Below the pieces are notes generated by a model. The model saw only the letters and a list, made by a program, of their open reading frames with translations, was not told where the DNA came from and ran no database searches. The position numbers were made by a program, and so were the translations under genes. Positions 12,101 through 26,891 of a stretch of DNA of 64,000 nucleotides are shown in pieces (position 1 is the stretch's first letter; every line of letters starts with the position of its first letter). The stretch lies in NCBI GenBank assembly GCA_037179385.1, contig CM074189.1, positions 21,649,020 to 21,713,019 on the forward strand, given 5' to 3'. This stretch comes from Holothuria scabra (lineage: Eukaryota; Echinodermata; Holothuroidea; Aspidochirotida; Holothuriidae).

Positions 12101-15100
12101 CAGTGCGGATGTGGGGGGGGGGGGGGGGTGATTCCTTCATAAGGTCACCTGTATTAGGTTCTTCATCTGCAAGTCCTTAAGGTCTTCATGTAAATGTTTG
12201 ACTTTAATTGCGGCTACAATACGGTACCATGCATAGTATTTCTTTAGTTGAAGGAATAGGAGTGACCCGGCGGAACATTTTGCTTTGCAGCTTCAGTAGT
12301 ACAACAAGAATTTTCTTGTTACTAGCATATTTGAGTGAATGAACAACAGCTTGTAAGAATAACAGCTAAATGTTGTAACAAACTGATATTCTGTCGGCCT
12401 TTCTAAAAAAATCAAACGCTCAGTGTTTTGATAATATTTATGTCGGCTCGTTATTTATGAAACTTTGTTTTTCGTCTTTAGTGCATTCGCAGGCACCTCA
12501 CCCGTTCAGGCTTGTTTACAGAATAGGTACAGATTTAAGGATATGTCCAATGGTGTCAACTGCTTGCCAAACGCTTGATTTGCCTTCAGTGGTCCTACCA
12601 ACTCCGACGGGGGACGTAGTTAAATTCATCATTTCTACATGTCCGGGAATTTCTACCATATACTTTCTAGTCGATGGAACAGCCGCGGACGAAATATTTT
12701 CTTTCGATCTCTCCAGCTCTGCTTCGGCCAACTTTATAGCAGATGCAGGTGCGTAGCTACTTACGCGTGACCGAATTGACACGTGACCTAACTAACCTTT
12801 ATTTAACCTTGATAAAGGAAGAATAAGAGTTTGACAGCGAATACTAATCCTTTGTTCTAGCAAATTCCTCTTTTTTTTCTTTGGTCAATTGAATGTTTAC
12901 AAGAATCAACAGACATTGAAGAGATCTTCCAAGTAAGAAGAACTTTGTTAATAACTGTTGAATGAGGAATAATAATTTTGTTCGGTTAACAAAATACCAC
13001 GCAGAAGTAAGACTAGACAGCCTATAATGTGACCAATTACACCACCAGACCATGATGACAAATTGTTTTTTTGTTAGTTTTAACTCAGTGTATGATTGTG
13101 GTGCAGGAATTAAGTCGCGGAAAACAAACTCTGACTTCCCCTTTAACCCTTTACCGTTGTTTGGGTCCTTTTGGGCCCATGCGGAGAGCTCGGCTGTCAC
13201 ACATCTTTCCTGTTTCACGCGGAGCTCGAAACTGCGAGTAGCTACCCGAAAACTCGGCCACAACAGCGAGAGAGACAATAGTTTAAGGTCACGGGGTCAA
13301 TGGCCTACGGAAGCCGATGCGGGGCGGGCTACGTCCGCTTTTCCGCTCACTCCCGAGGCGCGCAAATATGCCCCGATCGGAGCACAACGGTAAAGGGTTA
13401 AGCCTCCACAAGATTAATAACATCTGCTCTGTCATCACAAATAACTCCATAGATAGTGTAAAAAAATATTTATGATCTGTGGCCTTTTAAAAGCGGTTCG
13501 GATAGAAAATGTAAAAGACTATAGTAAAAATATTGGCAATCTGTTTGTAACTGATGCTTGTTAAACATTTTGGTCAAAACTTCCAAGATCTCCTTGCGTT
13601 CCCCGATACAAACTTTCCTAACCTAGAATAAGCGAGATTCCCATGGATGATGCAATTGTAATTTTGGCGCAAGTCTGTGTACGTCGATCAAACCAAATCG
13701 ATATTTAAGATAAGGTTACTTGTCGTATATAAGATGGAAAGGAATAAGATATTCTGAAGATGAAGTTTCAGTCTATTTAAAGTACTTCAGTCACTAGAAT
13801 CAATGTCAGGAAGTCATTACCAACAGTCATTGTGCTTGGTGTTCAACATAAGTAATGAAGTATAAAACAAGCCAGATAGTCACAACTTGAAAAATGGCCG
13901 TTACCGGCTCGACTTGAACCAATTGGTTCGAGACTGAGCCGTAAAACTCCATCTAACCAAATGTTGTTTTACTTTTTTCTTCCATATTTTCTCTCGTTTC
14001 ACCAAGGTTTTACGAGCGTAACGAGTTTTGATATATGCTGCGATAGGCTCTACATCTCCAATGGAAATACAATTTATGTTCAAAATCTTGACGTGACGTC
14101 ATTCGTCATAAGAAAAGGTATCTTGACGGCACACAGTAACATTGTTCATCTTGAAGTATCATGTAGCCCCACAGGGTAGGTAAAGACATCTCCTTACAGA
14201 AACATTGATCATGTTGCAGTGTAATCATACATAAAGGGCATACACAAAGGCTGTATTCGACACCCAGCTCTTGACTGTTCCGGGACATGCTGAGAACATG
14301 GGAATCCCTTCTGTAGTGTCGAACACATTCAGGCCTAACGTGCCACCGTACCGTGTCTTGCTTTCACCACTTACTTCGTCTAATTTTCATGGTAAGTCCC
14401 AAAGACTGTTACACTAGTGATTTATTCCTCTCGGATCAGGAAGTTGTCCCCGACAACTCCCTGCTCGGATACATTTCCTGCTCAAGATCAGTCATTGTGC
14501 TGCTGATAATTCCTTAAATTCCTTCCATGAGAAGCTATCTCCGCCATCTTGTTTACTGTTCGTTCTCGCTGCACCACGGCCGAGGTGGTGTGAGATTTGG
14601 GTGCAAGAACATGTTCTCGAACGTGTTATTTCATATTCGACGCGTATAGAATACTGTTCTCAGTTCCCGAACAGGGAGTCGAATACAGCCAAAGGTGCAC
14701 AGTTCTGTGAACCACAAAACAGCCTAATGCACGGAAGTTGCAAAATAAGGTAGCACAGAATATGAAGCTCAACGGGCTAGAGTTAATGTGCAGCTTTTTT
14801 TGCCAACCTTTCGGGTTTCAACCCTTTCACCAACTTGAGAGCTGCCGTACTCAAATGAATCTGCAGTGTTACATAGTATTATACTACTATTACGTATCAT
14901 TTTAAGTTACAGTCTTTGACAGTTTTTGAGAAATATTAAAATAAATAAAATTATCTGTTCGAAACATTCAGATTTCAACATCTGTATTATTCAATCGACG
15001 GCGATGGTCTCTACAGAGCAAACATGGATGGTACCAGCATCAGTAAGCTGATATCTTATGATGTAAATGACGTTATTGTGGCGTTGGATGTCAATCCAGG

Positions 15101-26891: not shown

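Follow-up and report, generated by a model that had tools for sequence, protein, structure and literature searches.

The window analysed here, a 64 kb stretch of Holothuria scabra DNA (37% GC, zero N), holds on its forward strand an 11-exon gene model that places a module of about 288 residues and an EGF in front of two Ig-like exons and EGFs of the Tie type. We rebuilt this model from the DNA alone, so that the exon joins are those predicted from splice sites and frame. Exon 1 (9086-9155) and ten exons within 12482-26891 join in one frame into a protein of 672 residues, with AG acceptors at exons 2-11 (10/10), GT donors at exons 1-10 (10/10) and the stop codon TAA at 26889-26891, at the end of exon 11. 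The frame continuity claimed in the initial annotation is thereby confirmed, exons 2-11 running in one frame to the stop between AG acceptors and GT donors; its length of 672 residues is recovered once exon 1 is included, although that exon lies outside the interval (12482..26891) it had assigned to the gene. All introns are in phase 1 except the phase 2 intron between exons 3 and 4, and the block formed by exons 2-6 has phase 1 at both of its outer borders.

Exon 1 (9086..9155), which ends in phase 1, encodes a predicted signal peptide, MRTQLSPWKQINLIIIVLLPFYR. It has the top score among 3 listed candidates between 3 kb and 12.47 kb, and it shares 12/24 residues with the start of P0001, a database protein from Holothuria leucospilota to which all identities in this paragraph refer. 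The N-terminal module is encoded by exon 2 (12482..12748; 58/88 identical), exon 3 (14007..14175, ending in phase 2; 47/56), exon 4 (14972..15099; 39/43) and exon 5 (16514..16813; 77/100), each placed by splice sites and frame; exon 4 carries the blade-like LYYSIDGDGLYRANMDG and a weak YWTD-blade score. Exon 6 (18660..18836; 55/59) encodes an EGF resembling EGF-C of LDLR, and its CCNGLCVP...FSCHC layout, like the LYYSIDGDGLYRANMDG motif, is found as first described. Exon 7 (19960..20265; 83/102) occupies the place of Tie Ig1, though an Ig-type cysteine pair was not seen in it, and exon 8 (22531..22788; 65/86) encodes an Ig2-like domain. Tie EGF1 follows in exon 9 (23573..23671; 26/33), Tie EGF2 with FCLQDPFGCQC in exon 10 (25950..26102; 46/51), and a truncated Tie EGF3 with the stop TAA in exon 11 (26800..26891; 26/30).

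A degenerate downstream copy, missed in the initial annotation, was found by tblastn and short-word blastn at 35340..43586 on the forward strand, starting 8.4 kb downstream of the intact gene. It is partial, containing exons 5-9 only, in the same order. DNA identity is 233/300 for the exon-5 copy (35340-35639), 159/177 for exon 6 (39031-39207), 273/306 for exon 7 (40179-40483), 230/258 for exon 8 (42242-42499) and 84/99 for exon 9 (43488-43586); the copy of exon 7 lacks one base and is thereby frameshifted, and that of exon 9 has an in-frame stop. Beyond chance-level matches, no second copy was found in the window for exons 2-4, 10 and 11 by tblastn, or for exons 1-4, 10 and 11 by short-word blastn. 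We read the partial copy as the relic of a tandem duplication. In a self-comparison by blastn (E<=1e-8, pieces >60 bases), no repeats overlapped the exons other than those of the tandem copy.

Several other features lie in the window. An inverted repeat pair in introns 3 and 9 (14249-14691 and 23825-24252; 480 aligned columns, 73% identical) is probably a dispersed element. A long simple repeat at 4829-5690 is open in several frames on both strands and is not a gene, and ARAGORN found no tRNA. On the reverse strand, broken reverse transcriptase frames at 46458-47173 (RVT_1, E 4.5e-08 and 0.017) mark a LINE-like element. Three adjacent reading frames at 57078-58660, also on the reverse strand, are, as judged from their predicted domains, another Ig-type gene: an Ig domain is evident in 58325-58660 (Ig_3, E 7e-10), a further one is weakly indicated in 57453-57815 (E 0.0037, short of the cut-off) and 57078-57389 has no significant Pfam match.

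A database protein search, with scoring limited to the 7996 candidates that had the most words in common, identified two relatives, both from Holothuria leucospilota, and a profile search returned the same two. P0001 (681 aa) matches end to end at 79% identity and is colinear with the gene, with a counterpart for each of the 11 exons; a 9-residue insert at its exon 7/8 junction looks like an annotation slip. P0002 (686 aa) is a diverged paralogue, with 39% identity over 89% of the query. The two genes are probably on the same chromosome. Gene product, P0001 and P0002 have one order in common: front module, EGF, Ig-like, Ig-like, EGF, EGF, partial EGF. Because even the diverged P0002 shares this order, an accidental join of neighbouring genes is unlikely, and the fusion of front module and Tie head in a single gene, as first proposed, is supported by both relatives at the level of predicted protein (79% and 39% identity, identical order). 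A search with the EGF region alone scored 4 candidates, P0002 not among them, and is uninformative on full-length kinase relatives. No relative from a further echinoderm turned up among the candidates scored.

The Tie identity of the second half of the protein is carried by its EGFs. In a PDB search with the single sequence, three of 7 distinct sequences at E<=10 were significant, all of them Tie2/TEK chains (E 2.3e-19 to 3.6e-19), and with a profile the same three were significant, of 6. The match extends from the last part of Ig2 into the beginning of EGF3, taking in exons 9 and 10 and the last 37 of the 86 residues of exon 8. Compared by profile (hhalign) with the Tie2 EGFs, exons 9-11 reached a probability of 99%, which 0/40 shuffles attained. 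Tie-type EGF1, EGF2 and the start of EGF3 with FCLxDPxGCxC are present; their predicted assignment to Tie is firm, and that of the two Ig-like exons weak. Exon 8 matches Pfam Ig_3 at E 0.005, below the cut-off, and the Pfam scan of exon 7 was without match; 2/40 shuffles were as good as exon 7 against Tie2 Ig1, and 4/40 as good as exon 8 against Ig2, while exon 7 against Ig2 was equalled by 0/40 shuffles but at a probability of just 3%. The Tie order proposed for exons 7-11 stands for the EGFs, borne out by Tie2 as the only significant PDB match, and falls short for Ig1 and Ig2, which are not individually significant.

Compared with Tie1 and Tie2 (TEK), the gene is alike from EGF1 into the beginning of EGF3, FCLxDPxGCxC included, and in that the end of the exon preceding the EGFs aligns to the end of Tie2 Ig2. 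It differs in its added N-terminal module and EGF, and in stopping within EGF3, with third Ig, FnIII and kinase not found. To describe it as a Tie ectodomain was accordingly an overstatement: the two Ig-like domains, two EGFs and a partial EGF were seen, and the third Ig, FnIII and kinase were not. Within echinoderms, a sea urchin SpTie1/2 was reportedly described by Stevens and colleagues in 2010 among the Tie receptor tyrosine kinases.

All three proteins end after DGTC[I/L], within EGF3 and at the same aligned residue, at a point where Tie2 continues with the remainder of EGF3; the initial annotation had missed both this ending and that no kinase is found in the window. A complete EGF3, third Ig and FnIII repeats are absent in 3/3 proteins. 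Hydropathy in 19-residue windows revealed no membrane-like segment near the C-terminus in any of the three. Only one window of the gene product, encoded by exon 2 (residues 69-87), lies above the customary mean-hydropathy threshold of 1.6 for a membrane span, exceeding it slightly at 1.70, its maximum; the maxima in P0001 (1.44) and P0002 (1.41) stay below it. No tyrosine kinase motifs were found in the 64 kb by a regular-expression scan run without a positive control, tblastn with a TEK kinase over the same 64 kb gave no alignment better than E 5.2, and Pfam found no kinase in P0001 or P0002. The predicted product is probably secreted rather than a receptor, and the database label ‘Tie-1 receptor kinase’ on the Holothuria leucospilota proteins is unsupported by their sequences.

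Splice signals around the stop were also compared. GT sites inside exon 11 have donor scores of at most 3.0, against 5.1-12.1 for the ten accepted donors; the weak phase-1 donor with a score of 3.0 is at 26884, and donors scoring 6.0 and 5.7 lie at 26894 and 26897, just past the stop. In P0001 and P0002 the last Cys is directly followed by Leu, whose codon starts with T or C, so a splice donor (GTR) at that Cys, which needs a purine, does not fit. Since one end residue is common to all three proteins, the short C-terminal end looks ancestral.

For the EGF of exon 6, EGF-C of LDLR was the best match among 9 EGF modules compared (54%; 0/30 cysteine-fixed shuffles reach it), followed by TEK EGF2 (11%, also 0/30 cysteine-fixed shuffles); the EGF that follows a propeller in LRP6 reached just 4.5%. 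By this comparison, a predicted EGF of the propeller-following type comes directly after the front module. The proposed LDLR/LRP type of exon 6 is upheld in its link to LDLR EGF-C, and the narrower designation ‘LRP-type’ is not. The likeness to the LDLR/LRP propeller-EGF cassette consists of a ~288-residue module with, directly behind it, an EGF that is nearest to LDLR EGF-C, together with one blade-like motif in the front module; the gene differs from the cassette in having no YWTD repeat family by Pfam or profile, and from LRP6 in that LRP6's own EGF is a poor match for exon 6.

The front module itself had been put forward as a six-bladed YWTD propeller, a claim to which no Pfam family above cut-off, no periodicity and no hhalign score lent support. 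The Pfam YWTD family (Ldl_recept_b, PF00058) had no match in the gene product, P0001 or P0002. Repeat periodicity was not above chance (best lag 42 among lags 30-61, p 0.78 versus shuffled columns), and hhalign was at chance level both against the LDLR propeller alone (27/40 shuffles as good) and against a profile of LDLR and LRP6 (4/40 local and 13/40 global shuffles as good). AlphaFold, run on two-sequence alignments of P0001 and P0002, gave mean pLDDT values of 30.1 and 27.7, too low for use. An HMM of 12 YWTD blades taken from LDLR and LRP6, with 1000 shuffles, found one blade in each protein, with whole-score p values of 0.009 for the gene product, 0.015 for P0001 and 0.16 for P0002; the best blade of the gene product (p 0.006) is in exon 4. 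A weak YWTD blade stands out, then, in two of the three proteins. Inspected by eye, the module can be read as five A-B-C-D strand units and a split sixth, as in LDLR. It is probably beta-rich, and on balance we lean towards a YWTD propeller.

A WD40-like or unrelated beta-rich fold is the competing reading of this module, and we give it a serious chance, if somewhat short of even. No Pfam propeller family stood above cut-off for the front module; below it, a CDC20-type WD40 family matched at E 0.04 on the joined protein and E 0.0077 on residues 1-346, a match that speaks for this reading but vanished in a scan of the 287-residue N-terminus by itself. The PDB search with a profile of the three N-termini points the same way, its two matches at E<=10 (E 0.05 and 0.8) both being known WD40 propeller proteins; the single N-termini of P0001 and P0002 gave 2 matches each (E 0.14 to 0.61), none named as a propeller. 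The chance-level YWTD profile comparisons and the lack of a YWTD-blade score in P0002 (p 0.16) also favour another fold. On the YWTD side stand the blade scores of the gene model and P0001 (p 0.006-0.015), the resemblance of exon 6 to the EGF that follows the LDLR propeller, and a DUF5050 match in P0001, which is below the cut-off at E 0.037 for the whole protein and E 0.017 for its N-terminus. Scanned alone, the N-termini gave, below the cut-off, no match for the gene, DUF5050 for P0001 and an EF-hand for P0002 (E 0.097); in the corresponding Pfam control, 2 of 9 shuffled N-termini gave one weak match each (E 0.12, 0.14).

Three further explanations concern the gene as a whole. It might encode a full receptor through alternative 3' splicing to exons past the window, the short form being one isoform. 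The weak donor (3.0) at 26884 and the better ones (6.0, 5.7) after the stop at 26894 and 26897 would allow this, as would the expansion of the tyrosine-protein kinase receptor family in A. japonicus (PMC5638244, in excerpt), but a kinase was not found in the 37 kb downstream, the partial tandem copy sits in between, and in P0001 and P0002 the final Cys is followed by a Leu that is unfit for a GTR donor there; we regard this as unlikely. Alternatively, a Tie receptor kinase gene may have been duplicated in tandem, and the locus, now broken and decaying, may have lost its 3' half; this would suit both the sister copy 8.4 kb downstream, with its frameshift and in-frame stop, and a 3' half not found in the window. 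It agrees poorly with 11 exons that are all open, usable splice sites and 79% identity to the protein of another species, and decay would not leave a 39%-identical paralogue ending at the same residue, so that we hold it to be quite unlikely. Very unlikely, in our estimation, is that two adjacent genes, one for front module and EGF and the other for the Tie head, have been wrongly joined by annotation and in the first description alike. The joins rest on DNA only, and the Holothuria leucospilota models may carry the same error; this is countered by the order shared between the gene and both Holothuria leucospilota proteins, one of them at 39% identity, and by the fit of frame and phase at the exon 6/7 junction.

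The reading we prefer, with confidence a little better than even, is that the locus holds an intact member of a small holothurian family, encoding a secreted, kinase-less Tie-like protein that would act as a ligand trap or adaptor for fibrinogen-domain ligands. The predicted order is signal peptide, ~288-residue module, LDLR-EGF-C-like EGF, two Ig-like domains, two Tie EGFs and a truncated third. Such a protein would be released into coelomic fluid or matrix, where its Ig2 region may, in the manner of soluble Tie2, bind ligands with a fibrinogen domain, angiopoietin-like or FREP, and the front module may add a second contact; it would thus be a ligand trap or adaptor and would not signal. As a predicted domain, Ig2, where the ligand would bind, has weak support. 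A phase 1-1 exon cassette, inserted between a signal-peptide exon and the Tie Ig exons, could be the origin of the front block.

Published work, as excerpted, offers parallels. The fibrinogen domain of angiopoietins binds Tie2 at Ig2, and a soluble form of the ectodomain can trap the ligand (PMC8294587). Of the families that are both expanded and clustered in A. japonicus, five in all, one consists of fibrinogen-related proteins and another of tyrosine-protein kinase receptors, with Tie membership unstated in the excerpted text (PMC5638244). In H. glaberrima, a TIE1-annotated gene, linked to ours by name only, is among the top genes of the coelomocyte-like, immune-like cluster C11, together with a ficolin gene (PMC11925454, in excerpt). 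Given the Tie2 trap, the FREP expansion and the TIE1/ficolin cluster, a Tie head with an extra module would most plausibly capture or present fibrinogen-domain ligands. It is like the engineered soluble Tie2 ligand traps, as excerpted in PMC8294587, in having a Tie head without membrane segment or kinase, and differs from them in being a natural gene, in its added N-terminal module and in a ligand that is only presumed. Such a fusion was not described in the literature searched, by title and abstract among the matches listed and mostly without subscription papers, and no paper in that search joined Holothuria leucospilota with tie-1.

A bolder proposal, which we advance as a rather doubtful one, is that sea cucumbers evolved a natural soluble Tie family by gain of an LDLR-like propeller-EGF cassette in front of the Tie ligand-binding head and loss of everything past the start of EGF3. 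Its members would serve as traps or adaptors for the expanded fibrinogen-related proteins in coelomic fluid, an angiogenic receptor having been co-opted for humoral immunity or regeneration. In practical terms, labels such as ‘Tie-1 receptor kinase’ may mislead readers towards signalling receptors, a kinase not having been found in these members. If the reading is right, a soluble Tie trap comparable to those currently engineered has arisen naturally, fused to a second module, in animals with strongly expanded fibrinogen-domain proteins. Tie biology, immunity and regeneration would then be connected, in an invertebrate, in a way that can be tested.
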